Shown piece after piece: positions 43,541-54,647 of a DNA stretch of 64,000 bases (positions within the stretch are counted from its first letter, which is position 1; each line of letters starts with the position of its first letter). A program made the position numbers and the translations under genes. Under the pieces are notes generated by a model. It did no database searches. It was not told the origin of the DNA and saw only the letters and a list, made by a program, of their open reading frames with translations. Origin of the DNA: Nocardioides marmorisolisilvae (lineage in GTDB: Bacteria; Actinomycetota; Actinomycetes; Propionibacteriales; Nocardioidaceae); the NCBI RefSeq assembly GCF_003725775.1, contig NZ_RJSG01000003.1:299307-363306 (forward strand), given 5' to 3'.

Positions 43541-46093
43541 ATGCGCGGAAACCTCCGACTCGCCCTCGTGGTCTGGGTCTCGATCGTGGTCGTGGCCGCG
43601 ACCATCGCGATCAACAAGAGCGGAGGCGGCGGCTCCGCCGACGAGCTGAAGAAGTCGTACGCCGCCACGGCGGCCAACACCACCAAGAAGACCGGTGACA
43701 ACACGGTCTACAACGCCGACGGCACCCACGCCCACGACCCGGGCACGCCGCCGCACAACGACAACGACCCGGCCACCAAGAACTCGGTGTCGCGGTCCGC
43801 GCCGACCACCGACAAGGACTCGGCCGACCCGACGACCCCGGCGCAGGCCAGCCGCAACATGCGCGCCGCGGCCGCCCAGCGCGCCGAGACCCCGGCGCCG
43901 CTCAAGCACGTCGCCGTCGACCCGTCCCAGCCGAGCATCCCGACGAACCGCTACAACCTGTTCAACGCTTGCTACGGCCTCCAGTCGACCGCGACCGGCA
44001 AGTGGCTGACCACCTCGGGCTTCAAGGGCGCCAGCCGCGACTCGGCCGCGCCGCTCTACTTCAAGCCGAGCTCGCTGGGCCACTACCTGGTGATGACCAA
44101 GTCGAGCACCTTCCTCGGCGGCAAGGGCCTCGCCACCTTCAGCACCGCGCAGCCCGGTCCGAGCGTGAACTGGACCGTGACCCAGGTCGGCGCCCGCTCC
44201 TTCCGTCTGCAGCTGCCGGGCTCCGGCTACCTGGCGAACTCGCACGGGATCGCGGCGTTCGCCGCCTCGCCGGGCACGACCACGCAGGTCACCCCGGTCC
44301 GTCGTACCGGGTGCACGGCGTTCCCGGAGATCAGCACCAACGTGGTCGGTGACCCGACCGCCGGCGTGACCAGCTTCCAGGAGACCCGCGGCTACATCGA
44401 CGCCCACACCCACGGGATGGCGTTCGAGTTCCTCGGCGGCGACCTGCACTGCGGTCGGCCGTGGTCGCCGTGGGGCGTGACCGTCGCGCTCAAGGGCTGC
44501 ACCGGTGTCGACGCGGTCGGCAGCGGCGCGGTCGGCGGCTTCCTCTCCGGCAAGCCGGGTGCGGACCCGAAGGGCTGGCCGACCTTCAAGGACTGGCCGG
44601 CTCCGGACGCCCTCACGCAGGAGGGCACCTACTACAAGTGGATGGAGCGCAACTGGCGGGCGGGCCAGCGGGTGCTGGTGAACCTGCTGGTCGAGAACAA
44701 CCAGCTCTGCATGATCTACCCGCGCAAGCGCAACTCCTGCGACGACATGACCTCGATCCGGCTCCAGGCGCACGACATGCACCTGATGGAGCAGTACATC
44801 GACGCCCAGCACGGCGGTCCGGGCAAGGGCTGGTACCGGATCGTCACCAACCCCGAGCAGGCCCGCACCGTCATCAACTCCGGGAAGATGGCCGTGGTCA
44901 TGGGCATCGAGACCTCGGTGCTCTTCGGCTGCCACACCCACTTCGGCCGCCCGACCTGCACCGCCGCCTCGATCGAGAAGCAGCTCACCGCGGTGCGCAA
45001 GATGGGCGTCACCCAGATGGAGCTGGTCAACAAGTTCGACAACGCGCTCGCCGGGGTCGCCGGTGACGAGGGCACGACCGGCTACCTGGTCAACGCAGCC
45101 AACACCCTCGAGACCGGGTCGCCGTGGCACATGACCACCTGCGACCCGAACGACCCCGAGGTGCACGACAAGGACCAGAGCAACTCCGCTCCGATCCCCT
45201 CGCAGGACGCGCTGTTCGGCGCGATCCTCAAGGCGGCCCCGGGCGTGAAGAACATCCTCGACCTGATTCCGGCGATCCCGCTCTACCCGGCCAAGCACCA
45301 CTGCAACACCCTCGGCCTGACCCCGCTCGGTGCGGACACCATCAAGGGCATGGTGAAGCGGCACATGCTGTTCGACCCGGACCACATGAGCGTCAAGGCC
45401 CGCAAGCAGTCGCTGGACCTGATCGACAAGCTCGGCTACCCGGGCGTGGTCTCGAGCCACTCGTGGTCCACCCCGGACGCCTACCCGCGGATCTACCAGG
45501 AGAAGGGCTTCATCACCCCGTACGCCGGCGACAGCAACGGCTTCGTGGAGAAGTGGAAGCGACACCTGACCTGGGCCAACCCGGCGATCTACTGGGGCAT
45601 CGGCTTCGGTGCCGACATCAACGGCCTCGGCGCGCAGGGCAACCCGCGCCCGGACGCTGCCAAGAACCCGGTCACCTACCCGTTCACCGGTCTGGGCGGC
45701 GTGAAGATCTACAAGCAGACCAGCGGCCAGAAGACCTACGACATCAACAAGGACGGCGTCGCCCACTACGGCCTGTACCCGGACTGGATCCAGGACCTGA
45801 AGATGCAGGCGGGCCCGGACATCGTCACCGACATGACCCGTGGCCCGGAGGCGTACCTGCAGATGTGGGAGCGCGCCTACGGCATCCAGTCGGACGCGTG
45901 CTCGACCCCGTCGTACAAGCGCTCCGCGTCCTGGTTCCGATCGACCCTCCGCAACGGCGACAGCTGGTGGTCCGTCCTCAACAAGGTCGGCCAGCCGCAC
46001 CGGCGTCTCGACCAGCGCTTCACCTACTGCACCACCAGCGGCTCGCTCGCCGTGAACTTCGACAAGGCAGGCCACCTCACCTCGATCAGCTAG
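43541..46093 (+). CDS. Secreted metal-dependent hydrolase (amidohydrolase/M19-like)
   Basis: 850 residues. An N-terminal membrane anchor or signal (LRLALVVWVSIVVVAATIAI) is followed by a Thr/Asp/Pro-rich linker and a beta-trefoil-like domain near 140-270. The catalytic half starts at about 285 with YIDAHTHGMAFEF (HxH metal site) and includes LFDPDHMSVKARKQSL and GVVSSHSWSTPDA. This suggests a TIM-barrel hydrolase related to dipeptidase or amidohydrolase families. It acts outside the cell. RBS is GGGAACAGG. A GH1 gene follows 9 bases later. The substrate is unknown. Confidence 0.8.
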   Translation: MRGNLRLALVVWVSIVVVAATIAINKSGGGGSADELKKSYAATAANTTKKTGDNTVYNADGTHAHDPGTPPHNDNDPATKNSVSRSAPTTDKDSADPTTPAQASRNMRAAAAQRAETPAPLKHVAVDPSQPSIPTNRYNLFNACYGLQSTATGKWLTTSGFKGASRDSAAPLYFKPSSLGHYLVMTKSSTFLGGKGLATFSTAQPGPSVNWTVTQVGARSFRLQLPGSGYLANSHGIAAFAASPGTTTQVTPVRRTGCTAFPEISTNVVGDPTAGVTSFQETRGYIDAHTHGMAFEFLGGDLHCGRPWSPWGVTVALKGCTGVDAVGSGAVGGFLSGKPGADPKGWPTFKDWPAPDALTQEGTYYKWMERNWRAGQRVLVNLLVENNQLCMIYPRKRNSCDDMTSIRLQAHDMHLMEQYIDAQHGGPGKGWYRIVTNPEQARTVINSGKMAVVMGIETSVLFGCHTHFGRPTCTAASIEKQLTAVRKMGVTQMELVNKFDNALAGVAGDEGTTGYLVNAANTLETGSPWHMTTCDPNDPEVHDKDQSNSAPIPSQDALFGAILKAAPGVKNILDLIPAIPLYPAKHHCNTLGLTPLGADTIKGMVKRHMLFDPDHMSVKARKQSLDLIDKLGYPGVVSSHSWSTPDAYPRIYQEKGFITPYAGDSNGFVEKWKRHLTWANPAIYWGIGFGADINGLGAQGNPRPDAAKNPVTYPFTGLGGVKIYKQTSGQKTYDINKDGVAHYGLYPDWIQDLKMQAGPDIVTDMTRGPEAYLQMWERAYGIQSDACSTPSYKRSASWFRSTLRNGDSWWSVLNKVGQPHRRLDQRFTYCTTSGSLAVNFDKAGHLTSIS

Positions 46094-46102
46094 GGGACAC
46101 CG

Positions 46103-47413
46103 ATGCGCAGGACGGCACTCACCTCGGCAGCACTGGCACTGCTAGCGGCGGTCACCTTCACCGGGGCCGGGACCGCGGGCGCGTCGGCCTCGAACGACCC
46201 GCCGCCGCTGCCGTCGAGCTTCCTGTGGGGTACCGCGAGCGCGGGCTTCCAGTCCGAGGGCTACTCGCCCGACAGCAACTGGTCGCGGTACGCCGCCGGC
46301 AACGCGAAGTACGACCCGGTGGGGACCTCGGTGGACTTCCTGCACCGCTACACCGAGGACATCGCCCTGGCCAAGGGCCTCGGCGTGAAGGTGTTCCGCT
46401 TCAGCGTCGAGTGGGCCAGGGTCGAGCCGAGCCTCGGGCACCAGGACCCGGCCGCCTGGGCCTTCTACGACAACGTCGTTGCGGCGATCAAGGCCGCGGG
46501 CATGCGGCCGATGATCACCCTCGACCACTGGGTCTACCCCGGCTGGGAGGCCGACAAGGGCGGCTGGGCCCGTGCCGGGATGGTCGACGACTGGTTGGCC
46601 GAGGCCAAGCGCGTCGTCGACCGGTACGCGTCGGCGGACCCGCTGTGGGTGACGATCAACGAGCCGTTCGCCTACTGGCTCAAGGAGTCGCAGAACGGCG
46701 GCTTGAACCCGCTGCTGCTCACCGTCTTCATGAACCGCCTGGTCCAGGCGCACAACGGGATCTACGACTACATCCACGCCCACCAGCCCGGCGCGATGGT
46801 CACCTCGAACGTGGCCTACATCCCGACCGCCGAGACGTTGATCGACACGCTGTTCCTCAACCGGGTGAAGTCGCGGATGGACTTCGTCGGCGTCGACTAC
46901 TACTACCCCGTTGCGCTGACCGACCCCTCCGGCCTGAACGCCTTCAACGGCCAGTTCTGGAAGGCGAGCCTGGCACCCGAGGGCATCTACTACGTGCTGC
47001 AGCACTACGCGCGGCAGTTCCCGACCAAGCCGCTGTACGTCGTCGAGAACGGGATGCCGACCGACAACGGACTGCCGCGCGCCGACGGCTGGGATCGCGC
47101 CGACCAGCTGCGCGACACCGTCTACTGGCTGGAGCGGGCGAAGGCCGACGGCATGAACGTGATCGGCTACAACTACTGGAGCCTGACCGACAACTACGAG
47201 TGGGGCAGCTACGAGCCGCGCTTCGGCCTCTACACCGTCGACGTGCTGCACGACCCGACGCTGACCCGGGTGCCCACCGACGCGGTGGCGGCGTACCAGG
47301 CGATCACGGCGGCGAACGGCGTCCCGGCCGGCTACACACCGGCCCGGGCACCGCAGTTCTGCTCGCTCGTGGACTTCCTGTCCAGCTGCCTGGATCCGGT
47401 AAGGGTGCCCTGA
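46103..47413 (+). CDS. Secreted GH1 family beta-glycosidase
   Basis: 436 residues with a signal peptide (LTSAALALLAAVTFTGAGTAGASA). GH1 hallmarks: FLWGTASAGFQSEG at the start of the barrel, the acid/base Glu in VTINEPFAYW (~186), and the nucleophile Glu in LYVVENGMPT (~315). NYWSLTDNYEWGSYEPRFGLY closes the active site. It likely removes beta-linked glucose or another sugar from an extracellular glycoside. Its ATG is only 9 bases after the hydrolase stop, indicating one operon. Confidence 0.92.
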   Translation: MRRTALTSAALALLAAVTFTGAGTAGASASNDPPPLPSSFLWGTASAGFQSEGYSPDSNWSRYAAGNAKYDPVGTSVDFLHRYTEDIALAKGLGVKVFRFSVEWARVEPSLGHQDPAAWAFYDNVVAAIKAAGMRPMITLDHWVYPGWEADKGGWARAGMVDDWLAEAKRVVDRYASADPLWVTINEPFAYWLKESQNGGLNPLLLTVFMNRLVQAHNGIYDYIHAHQPGAMVTSNVAYIPTAETLIDTLFLNRVKSRMDFVGVDYYYPVALTDPSGLNAFNGQFWKASLAPEGIYYVLQHYARQFPTKPLYVVENGMPTDNGLPRADGWDRADQLRDTVYWLERAKADGMNVIGYNYWSLTDNYEWGSYEPRFGLYTVDVLHDPTLTRVPTDAVAAYQAITAANGVPAGYTPARAPQFCSLVDFLSSCLDPVRVP

Positions 47414-47542: not shown

Positions 47543-50458
47543 GTGACCGCTTTGAGTATGACGACGACCCTGATCCTCGGTCTGATCCTGAACATCGTGA
47601 TCCTGCCGCTGGCCTTCAAGCGCGTCCTCTTCCTGTTCCGGCTGATCACCAGCGGCAAGCCGGCCCCGGACCGCATCGCCGGCGTCACCGGTCGCCTCAG
47701 CCAGGCCCTCAAGAGCCAGCTGGTCGAGGTCCTCGGGCAGAAGAAGCTGCTCAAGTGGTCGATCCCCGGCATCGCGCACTCGTTCGTGATGTACGCGTTC
47801 CTGATCCTGGCCTCCGTCTACGTCGAGGCTTACGGCGCGCTGATCTCGCGCAACCCCGACTGGCACTTCCTGTTCATCGGCAAGTGGGGCCCGCTCGGCC
47901 TCCTGCAGGACCTGATCGCGGTCCTCTGCCTGGTCGGCCTGGTCACCTTCTACTTCATCCGGATGCGCAACCAGCCCGCGAAGCTGGGTCGCAAGTCCCG
48001 GTTCTCCGGCTCGCACCTCGGCGGCGCCTACATCGTCCTCATCATGATCTTCAACGTCATCTGGACGATGTTCCTGTTCCGCGGCGCGGCTCAGGCCCAC
48101 GTGATGGCCGAGAACTCGCACGAGGGCTACGGCAAGTGGGCGTTCGTGTCCTACGGGCTCGGCAAGATCCTCCCGGACAGCCAGACCCTGATCGGGATCG
48201 GCCTGCTGCTGCACATCGGCATCATGCTGGTCTTCCTCATCGACGTGCTGCACAGCAAGCACCTGCACATCTTCATCGCGCCGATCAACGTCATGTTCAA
48301 GCGCCCCGACGGCCCGGTCGCCCTGGGTGCCGTCAAGCCGATGATCTCGGACGGCAAGGCGATCACCCTCGAGGACGTCGAGGAGCTCGACGAGGAGACG
48401 GTGCTCGGCATCGGGTCCATCGAGGACTTCTCGTGGAAGGGCCTGCTCGACATGGCCAGCTGCACCGAGTGCGGCCGCTGCCAGTCCCAGTGCCCGGCCT
48501 GGAACACCGAGAAGCCGCTGTCTCCCAAGATGCTGATCATGAACATGCGCGACCACGCGTTCGCGAAGGCGCCGTACATCATGGCCGGCAGCGAGGAGAA
48601 GCGCGCGGAGCTCGACGCGAAGACCCTGGCCGAGGCCGAGCGCCCGCTGGTCGGCGTCTCCGAGGGTGAGTACGCCTGGCACCCCGAGGGCGGCGCGATC
48701 ATCGACAACGACGTGCTCTGGTCCTGCACCAACTGCGGTGCCTGCGTGAACCAGTGCCCGGTCGACATCGAGCACGTCGACCACATCGTCGACATGCGCC
48801 GGTACCAGGTGCTCGTCGAGGCGAACTTCCCGGCCGAGCTCAACGGTCTGTTCAAGGGCCTGGAGAACAAGGGCAACCCCTGGAACATGAACCCCAACGC
48901 CCGGATGGAGTGGGCGCAGGGTCTGGAGTTCCCGGTCAAGGTCGTCGGCGAGGACGTCCAGGACCTGACCGAGGTCGACTGGCTGTTCTGGGTCGGTTGC
49001 GCCGGCGCCTACGAGGACCGGGCCAAGAAGGTCACCCGCGCGGTCGCCGAGCTGCTCGACATGGCCGGCGTCTCGTTCGCCGTCCTCGGCAACGGCGAGA
49101 CCTGCACCGGTGACTCCGCTCGCCGTGCCGGTAACGAGTTCGTCTTCCAGGCGCTCGCCCAGCAGAACATCGAGACCTTCAACGAGCACAAGGTCAAGAA
49201 GGTCGTCTCCACCTGTGCGCACTGCTTCAACACGTTGAAGAACGAGTACAAGGAGTTCGGCATCGAGCTCGAGGTCGTGCACCACACCCAGCTGCTGAAC
49301 CGGCTGGTGCGCGAGAAGAAGCTGACCCCGGTCGCCGCTCCTGGCCCGACCCGCAAGATCACCTACCACGACCCGTGCTTCCTCGGTCGCCACAACCAGG
49401 TCTACTCGCCGCCGCGCGAGCTCCTGGAGATCATCCCGGGTTCGGAGTTCAAGGAGATGCCGCGCAGCGCGGAGCGCTCCTTCTGCTGCGGTGCCGGTGG
49501 TGCCCGGATGTGGATGGAGGAGACGATCGGCGAGCGGATCAACGTGAACCGCACCGTCGAGGCCGTCGAGACCGGCGCCGACCAGATCGCCGTCGGCTGC
49601 CCGTTCTGCCGCACGATGCTCGAGGACGGCCTGACCAGCGAGCAGGACGCCGGCCGCGCCGGCGAGGAGGTCGAGGTCCTCGACGTCGCCCAGCTGCTGC
49701 TGGCCTCGGTCAAGGGCGAGGGCAAGAAGGAGAAGTCGTCCGAGCCCAAGGCGAAGGCTGCCGCGGGTGGCTCGCTCTTCGACGCCGCGCTGGAGGCTGC
49801 TGCTCCTGCCAAGCCGGCCGAGTCCGGTGGGTCGTTGTTCGACACCCCGGCCCCGGAGGCCGCCAAGCCGGCCGCGTCCGGTGGTTCGCTCTTCGACACC
49901 CCGGCCCCGGAGGCCGCCAAGCCTGCCGAGTCGAGCGGGTCGCTGTTCGACACCCCGGCGCCCGAGCCGGCGAAGCCCGCCGAGCCGAAGGCCGAGGCCG
50001 CTCCGGCCGAAGCCCCGAAGGCGGACGCGCCGAAGGCCGACCTGGGCAGTGGGGGATCGCTGTTCGACGTCGCCCCGACCGAGGCCGCGCCGGCGGCGCC
50101 TGCCGAGCCGAAGGCCGAGGAGCCCAAGGCCGAGGAGCCCAAGGCCGCTCCGGCGGAGGCTCCGAAGGCAGAGGCTCCTAAGGCCGATCTCGGGAGCGGC
50201 GGCTCGCTCTTCGACATCGTCGCCGCCGCCAAGGAGGAGGCTCCGAAGGAGGAGCCGAAGGCCGAGGCTGCCCCGGAAGCCGAGCCCGAGGCTGAAGCAG
50301 CCCCCGCAGAAGCCGAGGCCGAGCCCGAGGCCGCAGCTGAGGAGGCCCCGGCCGAGACCGCTCCCGAGGAGAAGCCGGCGGCGCCGAGCTCGGGCGAGGC
50401 GCACACGCCGAAGACCGACACCAAGATCCCCGAGGGTGGGTCACTCTTCGACATCTGA
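47543..50458 (+). CDS. Membrane-bound [4Fe-4S] oxidoreductase with GGSLFD tail (HdrD/Rv0338c-like)
   Basis: 971 residues. About five N-terminal transmembrane helices (NarI-like, residues ~5-240) are followed by two [4Fe-4S] sites: CTECGRCQSQCPAW and CTNCGACVNQCPVD. Then come two CCG domains with STCAHCFNTLK and ERSFCCGAGG, and VGCPFCRTMLED. This resembles heterodisulfide reductase HdrD/GlcF and the mycobacterial Rv0338c-type reductase, which is reported as essential. The tail from ~740 is Ala/Pro/Glu-rich with seven GGSLFD or SGSLFD motifs, the last one ending the protein. Electron partner unknown. GTG at 47543 is used; TTG at 47552 is also possible. Confidence 0.9.
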   Translation: MTALSMTTTLILGLILNIVILPLAFKRVLFLFRLITSGKPAPDRIAGVTGRLSQALKSQLVEVLGQKKLLKWSIPGIAHSFVMYAFLILASVYVEAYGALISRNPDWHFLFIGKWGPLGLLQDLIAVLCLVGLVTFYFIRMRNQPAKLGRKSRFSGSHLGGAYIVLIMIFNVIWTMFLFRGAAQAHVMAENSHEGYGKWAFVSYGLGKILPDSQTLIGIGLLLHIGIMLVFLIDVLHSKHLHIFIAPINVMFKRPDGPVALGAVKPMISDGKAITLEDVEELDEETVLGIGSIEDFSWKGLLDMASCTECGRCQSQCPAWNTEKPLSPKMLIMNMRDHAFAKAPYIMAGSEEKRAELDAKTLAEAERPLVGVSEGEYAWHPEGGAIIDNDVLWSCTNCGACVNQCPVDIEHVDHIVDMRRYQVLVEANFPAELNGLFKGLENKGNPWNMNPNARMEWAQGLEFPVKVVGEDVQDLTEVDWLFWVGCAGAYEDRAKKVTRAVAELLDMAGVSFAVLGNGETCTGDSARRAGNEFVFQALAQQNIETFNEHKVKKVVSTCAHCFNTLKNEYKEFGIELEVVHHTQLLNRLVREKKLTPVAAPGPTRKITYHDPCFLGRHNQVYSPPRELLEIIPGSEFKEMPRSAERSFCCGAGGARMWMEETIGERINVNRTVEAVETGADQIAVGCPFCRTMLEDGLTSEQDAGRAGEEVEVLDVAQLLLASVKGEGKKEKSSEPKAKAAAGGSLFDAALEAAAPAKPAESGGSLFDTPAPEAAKPAASGGSLFDTPAPEAAKPAESSGSLFDTPAPEPAKPAEPKAEAAPAEAPKADAPKADLGSGGSLFDVAPTEAAPAAPAEPKAEEPKAEEPKAAPAEAPKAEAPKADLGSGGSLFDIVAAAKEEAPKEEPKAEAAPEAEPEAEAAPAEAEAEPEAAAEEAPAETAPEEKPAAPSSGEAHTPKTDTKIPEGGSLFDI
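49826..49987 (+). repeat. 54-bp tandem repeat encoding GGSLFDTPAPEAAKPA units
   Basis: Units begin at 49826, 49880 and 49934, so the period is exactly 54 bp. Each encodes (G/S)GSLFDTPAPE(A/P)AKPA and a two-residue spacer. Further, more diverged GGSLFD motifs sit at 49766, 50051, 50198 and 50435 in the same frame. Confidence 0.85.
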
Positions 50459-50639: not shown

Positions 50640-52634
50640 ATGCGCAAGCTCACCCGGCTGACCGCCGCCTCGGTCGCCACCCTGACCCTGACCGCCGGCA
50701 GCTTTGCCGCCTTCGCAGCCGCGCACCACGCGAGCACCGGCTCGGGCAGCGCGGCGAACAGCTACCGGCACGAGGCCTCGGGCACCGAGAAGTCCGCCGC
50801 CCAGCAGCAGGCCCGCCACGAGGCGTCCGGGAGCGAGAAGAAGGTCGCCGCCGGCGCCAGGACCGCGAGCGCCGCCCAGGCCGCCAAGTGGACCGCGCGC
50901 GACGTGCAGTACCCCAAGACCGTCACGCTGCACGACCTGAAGATCCCGATGGACGACGGCGTCGTGCTGCGCGGTGACCTCACCCTCCCGGCCGACGCCG
51001 ACGGCAAGGCGATCGACAAGAAGTTCCCGGTGATCGCCACCATCACGGCCTACAACAAGGGCGTCCAGCAGTACGCCGGCGGCCTGGCCGGCGGCGACCC
51101 GAAGTACCTGGTGCAGCGCGGCTACGCCCAGCTGACCGTCGACGCCCGCGGAACCGGTACGTCGGCCGGCCAGTGGTGCGCGTTCTGCAGCCGCGAGGAC
51201 AAGGACTTCGGCGAGGTCATGCAGTGGGCCCACGAACAGTCCTGGAGCAACGGGCTGACCGCGATGGACGGCCCGTCCTACATGGGCATCGCGCAGATGT
51301 TCGCCGCCGCGGCCCAGCCCGACGGCCTGAAGGCGATCTTCCCGCAGGTGCCGGCCGCGGACGTCTACCGCGACGTGGTGGCCTCCGGCGGGCAGATCGA
51401 CATCGGCTTCATCCCGCTGTGGCTCGGCCTGGTCACGGTGACCGGCCTGATCCCGCCGACGGCCCCGCCGTCGGACGCGAGCCCGCTGATGGCGCTCGCC
51501 CAGCACCTCGCCGGCGCCGGGACCTTCACGCTGCCGCTGATCCTCAAGGCGTTCGCGGGCCAGGAGCCGGCGTACGACGGGCCGTTCTACGCCCAGCGCT
51601 CGCCGATCAACGTGGTGAACAAGGTCAACGTGCCGACGTTCTTCGTCAGCGGTGAGTACGACCTGTTCCAGCGCGGGACCCCGCTGCTCTTCGAGAACCT
51701 GCAGAAGCGCGGCATCCCGACCAAGCTGATCATCGGCCCGTGGAACCACCTCCAGGCCTCGGGTGGCGGTGAGGTCGCGAAGGCCGGCCTGGGCTCGCTC
51801 GACGAGCTCAAGCTGCGCTGGTTCGACCACTACGTGAAGGGCATCGCGGACCCGACCCTGGACTCCGACATCCCGCCGATGACCTACTACGAGCAGGGCA
51901 CCGGCGCCTGGAAGTCGGGCGCGGGCTGGATGAAGGACCGCAGCGCCGCGACGTACAAGCTCTCCGGCACCTCGAAGACCGCCGGCGCGGCCGGGTCCCT
52001 GACCACCGGAGCGGTGACGGCCGGGTCCTCCTCGGTCTACCCGATCCCGGTCTCGGGTCTGTGCACCCGCTCGACCGACCAGTGGACGGCCGGCCTGATG
52101 AGCGAGTTCCCGTTCCCGAACCCCTGCAACACCGACAACAAGTGGAACGACAAGACCGGGGTCGTCTTCTCCACCGCGCCGGTGACCAAGGCAGTGACCC
52201 TTCAGGGGCCGATCAACGCCCGGCTGTACGTCTCCAGCAACTCCGGCGACGGCATGCTCTCGGTCGCGGTCGAGGACGAGGCACCGGACGGCACCGTCTC
52301 CCGCCTGTCCGGCGGCTGGCAGGTCATCTCGCAGCGGGCGCTGAACACCGCGAAGTCGCGCTACCTCGACGGCCAGCTGATCCAGCCGTACCACCCGTTC
52401 ACCAAGGCATCGAAGAAGCTGCTGCCCAAGGGCTCGGTGGCCCCGGTCGACGTCGAGATCTTCCCGACGGGCGCGAAGATCCTGCCGGGTCACCGGCTGC
52501 GGATCGCCGTCCAGGCCTTCGACATCCCGCACCTGTCGCCGATCCTGCCGGACCTCCTGTCCACGCTGACGGTCATCAAGATCTTCAACTCGGCGCAGTA
52601 CCCGTCGCGGATCACCCTGCCGCTGGTTGACTGA
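50640..52634 (+). CDS. Secreted CocE/X-Pro dipeptidyl-peptidase family hydrolase
   Basis: 664 residues with a signal peptide (LTRLTAASVATLTLTAGSFAAFAAA). The alpha/beta-hydrolase core carries the nucleophile in MDGPSYMGIAQ (Ser ~213), the Asp in FVSGEYDLFQRGTP and the His in IGPWNHLQ. The C-terminal jelly-roll domain (residues ~460-660) ends with RLRIAVQAFDIPHLSP. These are the features of X-Pro dipeptidyl-peptidases and cocaine esterase-like enzymes. The enzyme cleaves an ester or X-Pro bond outside the cell; the substrate is unknown. AGGAATC precedes the ATG. Confidence 0.9.
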   Translation: MRKLTRLTAASVATLTLTAGSFAAFAAAHHASTGSGSAANSYRHEASGTEKSAAQQQARHEASGSEKKVAAGARTASAAQAAKWTARDVQYPKTVTLHDLKIPMDDGVVLRGDLTLPADADGKAIDKKFPVIATITAYNKGVQQYAGGLAGGDPKYLVQRGYAQLTVDARGTGTSAGQWCAFCSREDKDFGEVMQWAHEQSWSNGLTAMDGPSYMGIAQMFAAAAQPDGLKAIFPQVPAADVYRDVVASGGQIDIGFIPLWLGLVTVTGLIPPTAPPSDASPLMALAQHLAGAGTFTLPLILKAFAGQEPAYDGPFYAQRSPINVVNKVNVPTFFVSGEYDLFQRGTPLLFENLQKRGIPTKLIIGPWNHLQASGGGEVAKAGLGSLDELKLRWFDHYVKGIADPTLDSDIPPMTYYEQGTGAWKSGAGWMKDRSAATYKLSGTSKTAGAAGSLTTGAVTAGSSSVYPIPVSGLCTRSTDQWTAGLMSEFPFPNPCNTDNKWNDKTGVVFSTAPVTKAVTLQGPINARLYVSSNSGDGMLSVAVEDEAPDGTVSRLSGGWQVISQRALNTAKSRYLDGQLIQPYHPFTKASKKLLPKGSVAPVDVEIFPTGAKILPGHRLRIAVQAFDIPHLSPILPDLLSTLTVIKIFNSAQYPSRITLPLVD

Positions 52635-53192
52635 TCAGCAGGTCGTGCGGCTGAAGCGGATGCCCATCGTCACCCGAACGGTGCCGGTGGCTCCGCTCTC
52701 CGTGCGGTATCCGAGGTCGACCGCGTCGAGCTGACCACCACCGACGGCGTGGACGTGCAACATCGGGAGCATCGCGCGCTGGACCGGGAGCACGGTGCGG
52801 AAGATCGGCGTTCGCGCCCGCCAGTCGACGTCCTCGAGCAGACCGCGGTCGACCACGGGCGGCCATTCCGTCACCCCGAGGGAGTTCACGCTCCCGCCGA
52901 CGACCGGCAGCAGCAGTCCGCCGAGCACCCGGACGCCGTGACCGACGGCCGTCGCCGTGGTGATGCGTAGCGGCGTCGATGCCGTGAGGGTGTCGCTCCA
53001 GAACCCCAGGTCCTCCTTGCGGACCTTCTCCAGGCAATCCACCCCGGTGCCACGCCCGGTCACGGTGAGGGCCGGGCCGTCGTCCGCCGGCGTCGTGGAC
53101 GCCTTCCCCGGGGTCGGGCGAGCCGACGGCGAGGTCCCTCCGCAGCCGGAGATGAGCAGGGTCGTCAGCAGCAGGATCCCGAGAGCGCGCAC
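52635..53192 (-). CDS. Lipoprotein of unknown function
   Basis: 185 residues. A lipobox LLISGC follows a short hydrophobic signal, so Cys17 is the lipidated residue. The mature part starts with a Ser/Pro/Thr-rich linker and continues as a beta-rich domain without known motifs. Its stop is directly against the CocE stop. Function unknown. Confidence 0.72.
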   Translation of the reverse strand: MRALGILLLTTLLISGCGGTSPSARPTPGKASTTPADDGPALTVTGRGTGVDCLEKVRKEDLGFWSDTLTASTPLRITTATAVGHGVRVLGGLLLPVVGGSVNSLGVTEWPPVVDRGLLEDVDWRARTPIFRTVLPVQRAMLPMLHVHAVGGGQLDAVDLGYRTESGATGTVRVTMGIRFSRTTC

Positions 53193-53207
53193 GGCGGCAG
53201 CGTAGCG

Positions 53208-53271
53208 ATGACACCGCCTGACGCCGCCCTGATGTCAGATTGGTGTTGACATGACACCATGATGATGTCAT
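53208..53271. promoter_or_regulatory. Operator array before the ribbon-helix-helix gene
   Basis: Half-sites ATGACACC (53208-53215 and 53251-53258) alternate with GATGTCA (53231-53237) and GATGTCAT (53264-53271). The pair at 53251-53271 forms ATGACA-N9-TGTCAT. A TTGACA box (53246-53251) overlaps it. The layout suits cooperative binding by a ribbon-helix-helix protein at its own promoter. Confidence 0.6.
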
Positions 53272-53281
53272 CGTGGTGCAC

Positions 53282-53809
53282 ATGGACATCACCCCGTACG
53301 TCGAGCGCCTCCGCCAGGACCTGGCCCAGAGCGCCGCCGCCGGCAACGAGCAGATCCGCGACGCCGCGGAGCGCCTCGCGCTGGCCCTGGACCCGAGCAT
53401 GCGGCTGGCGCTGATGGAGGCCCTCTCCCAGGCCGCCGCCGAGATCACCACCGAGATGCGCAGCGGCTCCGTCGACGTCCGCCTCGCCGGACGCGAGCTG
53501 GAGTTCGTGGTCGCGCACCCGATGCCGGCCGAGGAGGCCGTCGCCGCCCCGGGCCCGTCGGTCGAGGACGAGGACGACGCCGCCACGGCCCGGATCACGC
53601 TGCGGCTGCCGGAGAGCGTCAAGGCCAAGGCCGAGGAGCTCGCCACCAAGCACGGCAGCTCCCTGAACACCTGGATCGTCAACGTCCTGCGCGGGGCCAC
53701 CCGCGAGGGCGCCATCAACATCGACATCGACCTCTCCAGCCTGCCGCTCGACGGTTTCGGCCCCGGCGGCAAGAGCCGGGGCGCCAAGCGGATGACCGGC
53801 TGGGTCTGA
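53282..53809 (+). CDS. Ribbon-helix-helix (Arc/HicB-type) regulator
   Basis: 175 residues from the ATG at 53282. The N-terminal half is helical (ITPYVERLRQDLAQSAAAGNEQIRDAAERLALAL). The C-terminal part has a ribbon-helix-helix: ARITLRLPESVKAKAEELATKHGSSLNTWIVNVLRGATR. It probably binds the half-site array directly upstream. Its partner DUF4097 gene starts 22 bases later. A toxin-antitoxin reading is possible from the HicB-like domain, but no HicA-type toxin is present. Confidence 0.8.
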   Translation: MDITPYVERLRQDLAQSAAAGNEQIRDAAERLALALDPSMRLALMEALSQAAAEITTEMRSGSVDVRLAGRELEFVVAHPMPAEEAVAAPGPSVEDEDDAATARITLRLPESVKAKAEELATKHGSSLNTWIVNVLRGATREGAINIDIDLSSLPLDGFGPGGKSRGAKRMTGWV

Positions 53810-53831
53810 ATCTCTCGGAAGGAGCACTGCC

Positions 53832-54647
53832 ATGAAGCAGACGTACAACACCCCTGGACCGATCTCGGTCTTCGTCGAGCTCGGCTCCGGCCAGCTCACC
53901 ACCGTCGCTGCCGACACCACCGAGGCCTCCGTCGAGGTCCGCGGTCCGCGCGCCGAGGAGTTCCACGTCGAGTTCAACGGCAAGCGGATCGACGTGATCG
54001 CCCCGCACGGCCGGTTCTTCGGACGCGGCGACTCCCACGACGTGCGGGTGCACGTGCCCACCGGGAGCGAGCTGGTCACGAAGATGGGCTCCGCAGACAC
54101 CACCACGACCGGCACCCTCGGGCTGCTGGCGCTGAAGACGGGCTCGGGCGACATCGAGGTCGACCGCGCTGAAGGCCCGGTGGTGATCGAGAGCGGCTCG
54201 GGCGACATCAAGGGCCAGCAGTTCGGCGCCGAGGTCCGGATCAAGAGCGGGTCCGGGGACATCGACGTGCGCGAGGTGTTCGGCAAGACCGGCATCTCCA
54301 CCGGATCCGGCGACGTCGTGCTCGGCACCGTGCACGCCGCGACCGTCATCAAGACCGGGTCGGGCGACCTCCAGGTCAACCGCTCCGAGGGCGACGTCTC
54401 CCTGACCACCGCGTCGGGCGACCTGACCATCGGCGCCGCCCCGCGCGGCAAGGTCACCGCCAAGAACGTCTCCGGGGACGTGCGCGTCGGCATCCCGACC
54501 GGTACGCCGGTGTGGACCGACATCAACACCGTGACCGGCAACGTGAAGAACAACCTGACCAGCGTGGGCAAGCCCGCGAAGGACCAGGACTACGTCGAGC
54601 TGCGGGCCAGCACCGTCAGCGGAGACGTCCTGCTGAAGCAGGTGTGA
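53832..54647 (+). CDS. DUF4097 beta-helix protein
   Basis: 271 residues of repeating short strands with the DUF4097 SGSGD signature: TGSGDIEVDRAEGPVVIESGSGDIKGQQ, IKSGSGDIDVREV, STGSGDVVLG and KTGSGDLQVN. It likely folds as a right-handed beta helix. There is no signal peptide, so it is cytoplasmic or exported by an unusual route. AAGGAGCA precedes the ATG. Same operon as the RHH regulator and the following 31-residue peptide. Function unknown. Confidence 0.85.
   Translation: MKQTYNTPGPISVFVELGSGQLTTVAADTTEASVEVRGPRAEEFHVEFNGKRIDVIAPHGRFFGRGDSHDVRVHVPTGSELVTKMGSADTTTTGTLGLLALKTGSGDIEVDRAEGPVVIESGSGDIKGQQFGAEVRIKSGSGDIDVREVFGKTGISTGSGDVVLGTVHAATVIKTGSGDLQVNRSEGDVSLTTASGDLTIGAAPRGKVTAKNVSGDVRVGIPTGTPVWTDINTVTGNVKNNLTSVGKPAKDQDYVELRASTVSGDVLLKQV

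Follow-up and report, generated by a model that had tools for sequence, protein, structure and literature searches.

Gene content of the locus

The window, i.e. the whole 64,000-nucleotide stretch of the genome of Nocardioides marmorisolisilvae that was analysed, contained an open reading frame on the plus strand (positions 47543-50458) coding for a protein of 971 amino acids, which, judged from its sequence, is an actinobacterial EtfD. The closest solved chain was that of PDB entry 9ojn (6.3e-252), recorded under the title 'iron-sulfur-binding reductase', with 9ojn_A matching residues 8-349 and 367-864 at 842 bits. This entry was taken as the Mycobacterium smegmatis EtfD of PMC13083937, because the length mentioned in the available text of that paper is equal (1042 residues). 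Pfam analysis retrieved the CCG domain (1.4e-36, in two stretches) and the 4Fe-4S dicluster (Fer4) families. Furthermore, the cysteine residues 503, 538, 581, and 584, which are the ligands of the linear [3Fe-4S] cluster D1 in M. smegmatis numbering (available part of PMC13083937), align to C486, C521, C558, and C561 of the window protein. The AlphaFold2 model displayed long helices at the N-terminal end (residues 2-36, 74-102, 116-142, 159-190, and 214-237), which are predicted to be membrane helices. According to the accessible text of PMC13083937 and PMC8593149, EtfD transfers the electrons from fatty-acid beta-oxidation, brought by ETF (EtfBA), to menaquinone. EtfBA was found in all 49 genomes searched of the family to which the window belongs, its own genome included.

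The neighbourhood of the EtfD gene (43541-47413 and 50640-54647) encoded a weak match to an M19 peptidase (below the cut-off), a GH1 glycosidase, a CocE/NonD hydrolase, a HicB-domain protein, and a DUF4097 protein; no obvious EtfD-linked neighbour was present in these two regions. The features of the EtfD gene itself are listed in Table 1.

Table 1. Features of the EtfD-encoding gene in the window
Feature	Positions	Strand	Basis
EtfD folded part, residues 1-731: predicted membrane helices, 4Fe-4S dicluster, two CCG domains	47543-49735	+	Pfam, PDB 9ojn, AlphaFold2
Disordered Ala/Pro/Glu-rich tail, residues 732-971	49736-50455	+	pLDDT <50 at nearly all residues
Motif copy 1, GGSLFD	49766-49783	+	
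Motif copy 2, GGSLFD (copies 2-4 lie at 54 bp intervals)	49826-49843	+	
Motif copy 3, GGSLFD	49880-49897	+	
Motif copy 4, SGSLFD	49934-49951	+	
Motif copy 5, GGSLFD	50051-50068	+	
Motif copy 6, GGSLFD	50198-50215	+	
C-terminal module SSGEAHTPKTDTKIPEGGSLFDI, includes motif copy 7 (50435-50452)	50387-50455	+	

The SLFD tail of the window protein

From about residue 732 onwards, the pLDDT value of the AlphaFold2 model was below 50 nearly throughout, and this model gave no sign of the tail docking on its own EtfD core. The 247-residue stretch from residue 725 to 971 carries a net charge of -28, and all seven of its phenylalanine residues, as well as seven of its ten leucine residues, are located inside the repeated motif. 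An earlier sequence-only reading of the locus had reported seven copies of GGSLFD (once SGSLFD) and GGSLFDI as the last residues of the protein, and both observations were confirmed, with the copies starting at positions 49766 to 50435, and copy 7 being followed by a single I and the stop codon. The start-to-start spacings of the copies are 60, 54, 54, 117, 147, and 237 bp. The same reading had described copies 2-4 as exact 54-bp units, which had to be corrected, as these units are equal in length only, with pairwise identities of 48, 42, and 43 of 54 bases. When the tail residues were shuffled 100,000 times, one SLFD was obtained in 84 shuffles and two in none. A search of the own genome with a degenerate pattern yielded 13 matches, seven of them the EtfD copies and six elsewhere. 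Two of the latter encode GSLFD, one in an open reading frame of 154 amino acids of doubtful coding status and the other in an open reading frame that we take to be that of a fumarylacetoacetase. The bacterial sliding clamp is bound through the motif QL[SD]LF; this assignment was rejected for the tail, since the Gln residue before SLF is absent in all seven copies.

Conservation of the motif among relatives

Tails were read from genome loci and from the best 80 of 580 confirmed named loci, many of them from Nocardioides and Marmoricola. Removal of duplicates and of rows without the regex anchor left 125 distinct EtfD proteins, of which 111 had complete, unmasked tails and the remaining 14 were left out; six loci without the regex anchor (L072-L077, all from family f5) were read separately. 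Tails of at least 100 amino acids occurred in 72 of these 111 proteins, and 50 of the 72 contained three or more S[LM]FD motifs (hereafter SLFD tails), while SLFD was found in none of the 39 shorter tails. The motif SLFD[ILV] formed the C-terminal end in 49 of the 50 SLFD tails, the exception (L154) ending in QAQTLELG. In the 49 rows ending with SLFD[IL], a set selected for this very end, residues further upstream were conserved as well, namely P(-16) (41 rows), T(-14) (39 rows), D(-13) (37 rows), and I(-10) (43 rows). An additional motif, SL[RHK]D[IV]K, which is SLFDI-like with a basic residue replacing F, was present in eight of 48 SLFD tails (G028, G043, G047, G071, G004, G314, G316, and G318).

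The SLFD tails are variable in length (201 to 615 amino acids) and in copy number (4 to 11), as expected if the tail were a flexible low-complexity spacer or a membrane clustering element, the link with EtfB described below being the result of hitch-hiking; the short tails of 10-23 amino acids of EtfD in other families are in line with this too. Such a role is nevertheless rather improbable, considering that 360 of the 390 phenylalanine residues of the 50 SLFD tails fall inside S[LM]F[DE] and that the C-terminal copy is kept in all but one of them.

The strict end position might also point to a C-terminal degradation or localisation signal, with SLFDL as its terminal form. This is very improbable, as the motif occurs internally as well (three to ten copies per SLFD tail), and as no other protein end with SLFD[IL] was found when eight SLFD-tail genomes were searched with a degenerate pattern at the stop codon. 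Indeed, this search returned 11 matches, eight of which were the EtfD ends. The other three were discarded, being without SLFD at the stop, as two of them continue (CLFDIW and TLFDLW) and SFFDL ends a different protein. The uniqueness of this end in the eight genomes equally argues against functionless repeats originating from replication slippage, an origin that the tandem 54-bp units of copies 2-4 could evoke. Moreover, all seven copies differ in DNA sequence with the protein motif kept constant, and the motif is kept in different genera and at the C-terminal end, making slippage without function scarcely credible.

Other tail types

An EtfD match was obtained in 191 of the 217 genomes of a class survey, and in 286 genomes of the family of the window. 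Within the family of the window, other tails ended with LIGSL or SGSL, or with DRLF or DTLF; those of the g19 type (class J) contained AWANVGPVNTDL and DANPSG elements, and tail-less EtfD proteins were present too. Outside this family, the tails of 18 genomes and of 28 named loci (among the best 80 of 580) were read, and SLFD was found in none of them. These 28 loci, belonging to other genera (Actinomadura and Streptosporangium among them), had tails of 10-23 amino acids. One family possessed a tail matching that of 9ojn, with basic KGLGxAxGAKRPG-like repeats reaching the C-terminus. Genome G212 (locus L069), also from outside the family of the window, encoded about a dozen PSWE repeats, the last one being C-terminal, apparently an independent case of the repeat-plus-end layout. 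The sequence-only reading had held that absence of the motif from orthologues, or its presence at random positions in unrelated Ala-rich proteins, would point to slippage repeats without function. The outcome was mixed: among the tails read, the motif is lineage-restricted, and the searches of the own genome and of the eight SLFD-tail genomes gave no sign of a random feature.

Several elements were shared between tail types. A module close to the start of the tail, approximately AGDxTQTEDTVTxTEDVGPxAKA, was searched for with a loose pattern; it occurred in 30/48 SLFD tails, in 3/3 tails of class R, 5/21 of class N, 3/11 of class J, and 0/5 of class I, and was absent from the window EtfD. Its presence in several classes suggests an older shared tail. 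Similarly, a PSGxxLSxxAT-like motif was common to seven of the 11 g19 tails and occurred internally in eight of the 48 SLFD tails. The tails of G023, G040, G050, G058, and G065 end with IGSL or SGSL and lack SLFD repeats; IGSL/SGSL tails carry charged stretches, such as ELKAELKDELLAE, which are probably helical.

Separate inheritance of tail and core

A tree of the EtfD core of 49 genomes revealed two deep clades. Mapping the SLFD label onto this tree required seven changes, at least six of them forced by starred branches, versus two changes on an EtfBA tree made without the EtfB hairpin stretch treated below. Among the 41 genomes whose tails exceeded 90 amino acids, tail similarity correlated with EtfBA similarity (Spearman 0.71; 0.68 with the core held fixed) and hardly with core similarity (0.03 with EtfBA held fixed). 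The effect was weaker among the 24 SLFD genomes alone (0.24 for EtfBA versus 0.04 for the core). In 87 classed genomes, with the core type derived either from the 49-genome tree or, for 40 added genomes, from the identity to the window protein (70-90% versus 57-61%), the window-type core was combined with 23 SLFD and 10 other tails; for the second core, the respective numbers were 25 and 29. As predicted in advance, the g19 genomes G290 and G310 possessed a window-type core together with g19-type tails; in addition, all 24 added g1 and g6 genomes carried SLFD tails with either core. These comparisons indicate, at the level of sequence, that the tail type follows EtfBA and the genus and not the catalytic core to which it is attached.

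Covariation of the tail with a patch in EtfB

The EtfB residues 142-178, a putative hairpin stretch of 37 columns, directly precede the sequence EARYPSFKGIM, which by our own reading would correspond to the recognition loop 189-198 of human ETF (available text of PMC4148887). This stretch reads LPQVT..SVIESQG in SLFD genomes and typically LPAVT..SEITVDG in the others. It contained eight of the top 20 EtfBA columns (out of 581) separating SLFD from near non-SLFD genomes, its bounds having been set by eye after viewing the alignment. Under stricter rules, five of nine SLFD-diagnostic columns fell within it, while tree simulation expects about 7.6 such columns across all 581. As variability is higher here than elsewhere in EtfBA, an entropy-matched control was applied, which gave an expectation of 0.53 columns versus the five found, with six of 20,000 draws reaching five. 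A second SLFD lineage (G024 and G051) shared three of the five diagnostic columns in the hairpin versus none of the four elsewhere, a pattern expected in 1.75% of the simulations. However, Q144 may be ancestral, because PQ is common in outgroups, so that Q154 and G172 remain. In genus g24, represented by four genomes in the sample, G024 and G051 combined SLFD tails with non-acidic patches, and G041, without SLFD, had E, D, T, and E at the four patch positions. The tail classes I, J, and R showed no hairpin enrichment of their diagnostic columns (1/8, 3/29, and 0/1, respectively).

The patch itself consists of residues 150, 154, 170, and 172, which are typically V, Q, V/I, and G in SLFD genomes and E, D/E, T, and E in the others. 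The alternation of residues suggests that these four side chains are outward-facing, and with this presumed geometry a non-acidic V/Q/V-I/G patch would suit an acidic-hydrophobic motif. Over all 87 genomes that were classed, Q154 was present in 45 of 48 SLFD genomes and in none of the 39 others. The Q154 rule had been fixed before the EtfB sequences of 40 further genomes were examined, and it was followed in 22 of the 24 added SLFD genomes, with the tails of at least 11 of these 24 being known beforehand and the EtfB sequences alone being new; Q154 was absent from all 16 added others. The two exceptions, G340 and G376, had R150 and K154, their SLFD motifs being ordinary, and no drifted motif was present among the 24 added SLFD tails. 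With a patch-charge criterion formed only after these two failures, the charge was -1 or above in all 48 SLFD genomes and -2 or below in 38 of the 39 others, the remaining one being at -1.

A few class assignments bear on these figures. Genome G053, with two SLFD motifs, copies drifted to DDLF and SLFDDDD, an end GDDLWDD, and the patch VRRA, was manually assigned to the SLFD class and excluded from the column scans. Without it, the charge figure becomes 47/47; by the count rule, it would be classed as non-SLFD in spite of its non-acidic patch and hence be an exception. The tail of G317 was incomplete after three SLFD motifs and counted as SLFD, and G080, also with an incomplete tail, was assigned to class J by hand. 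Genomes G035 and G059, with incomplete tails and patch charges of -1 and 0, stand outside the counts of SLFD and other genomes. Independent switch pairs numbered one on well-supported branches and three on the best tree, which is too few for significance, so that phylogeny alone could carry the association between SLFD and the patch. The association of the SLFD tail with the EtfB patch is hence a strong correlation, short of proof.

A putative tether for ETF

As the motif changes in step with one EtfB patch, the tail probably is a multi-point docking site for ETF, and we favour, with some confidence, the explanation that the SLFD tail acts as a multivalent tether, to which ETF docks via its EtfB subunit. 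Each (G)GSLFD[ILV] would be a short hydrophobic-acidic docking motif, binding weakly to the patch 150, 154, 170, and 172, which would sit in a beta-hairpin-like EtfB segment just before the conserved loop contacting the acyl-CoA dehydrogenases. Many such weak sites on a flexible linker could hold ETF near the membrane during shuttling, possibly with a gain in electron transfer. The sequence-only reading had proposed a multivalent docking site for a partner or for clustering in the membrane; this proposal is partly supported, its docking part being backed by the conserved motif and C-terminal copy, the predicted disorder, and the covariation with the EtfB patch.

Tail type and genus go together, and the same would hold for every partner that is inherited vertically. 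The tail may hence dock another lineage-specific partner, such as the acyl-CoA dehydrogenases, another respiratory complex, or the tail itself, with EtfB merely sharing its ancestry, and both the few independent switches and the additional conserved modules of the tails are compatible with such a partner. It seems unlikely, though still worth weighing, because the diagnostic columns cluster in one EtfB segment and are not spread across EtfA and EtfB, and because the second SLFD lineage shares diagnostic columns in that segment only.

In a more tentative picture, EtfD would consist of two modules, namely a catalytic core that is exchanged between lineages and a disordered tail that remains associated with the ETF of its own lineage. 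This tail may then be an interchangeable adaptor with lineage-specific codes (SLFD, KGLG...KRPG, PSWE, LIGSL, and others) read by the matching ETF surface, the reader of SLFD being the EtfB patch 150/154/170/172. The contact of ETF with the mitochondrial quinone oxidoreductase was described as unknown in 2014 (available text of PMC4148887); for the meeting of ETF with EtfD, the covariation points to one motif and to four EtfB residues as candidates. Furthermore, the combinations of cores and tails form a natural series for studying the way in which a redox pair remains matched after one member has been swapped between lineages.

Comparison with known systems

No paper on the SLFD motif (GGSLFD or SLFDL) was found in the open-licence literature searched, and the titles retrieved there for ETF with a disordered or linear motif comprised no relevant work beyond the EtfD papers. 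The remark of the sequence-only reading that it knew of no described role does not quite hold, as the disordered repeat tail of mycobacterial EtfD and its AlphaFold3 contact with ETF have been published. Indeed, in the accessible parts of the respective papers, the M. tuberculosis EtfD co-precipitates EtfB (PMC8593149), and AlphaFold3 places the mycobacterial ETF on the disordered EtfD tail, ETF being absent (unbound) in the EtfD structure (PMC13083937). EtfD, its mycobacterial disordered repeat tail, the AlphaFold3 contact, and the EtfB co-precipitation are thus already known. What appears to be new is the SLFD motif, together with the EtfB patch and the finding that tail and core are inherited separately. 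The portion of PMC13083937 that was available describes no motif-to-EtfB code, no SLFD, and no separate inheritance of tail and core for the mycobacterial EtfD.

The mycobacterial EtfD (Rv0338c/IspQ, MSMEG_0690; 9ojn), as far as described in the available text, resembles the window protein in family, domain layout, and disordered repeat tail. However, mycobacterial-type tails contain basic KGLGxAxGAKRPG-like repeats, whereas the window tail contains SLFD, and KGLG...GAKRPG repeats were absent from the latter by inspection. The homologues FadF (Bacillus) and DgcB (Pseudomonas) are thought to accept electrons from ETF as well, but differ from EtfD in that their tail is short or absent and the D1 cysteines are missing, according to the accessible part of PMC13083937. 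A likeness of working, without any claim of homology, exists with Tic62 and TROL of plants, membrane-attached proteins that recruit a soluble flavoprotein, ferredoxin-NADP+ reductase, via a short motif. This motif is repeated in many Tic62 proteins and is C-terminal in TROL, after a proline-rich stretch that was proposed to act as a swivel (available text of PMC7108012). Both the proteins and the partner are different from those considered here and, unlike in Tic62 and TROL, the tail of EtfD sits on the electron-accepting enzyme itself.
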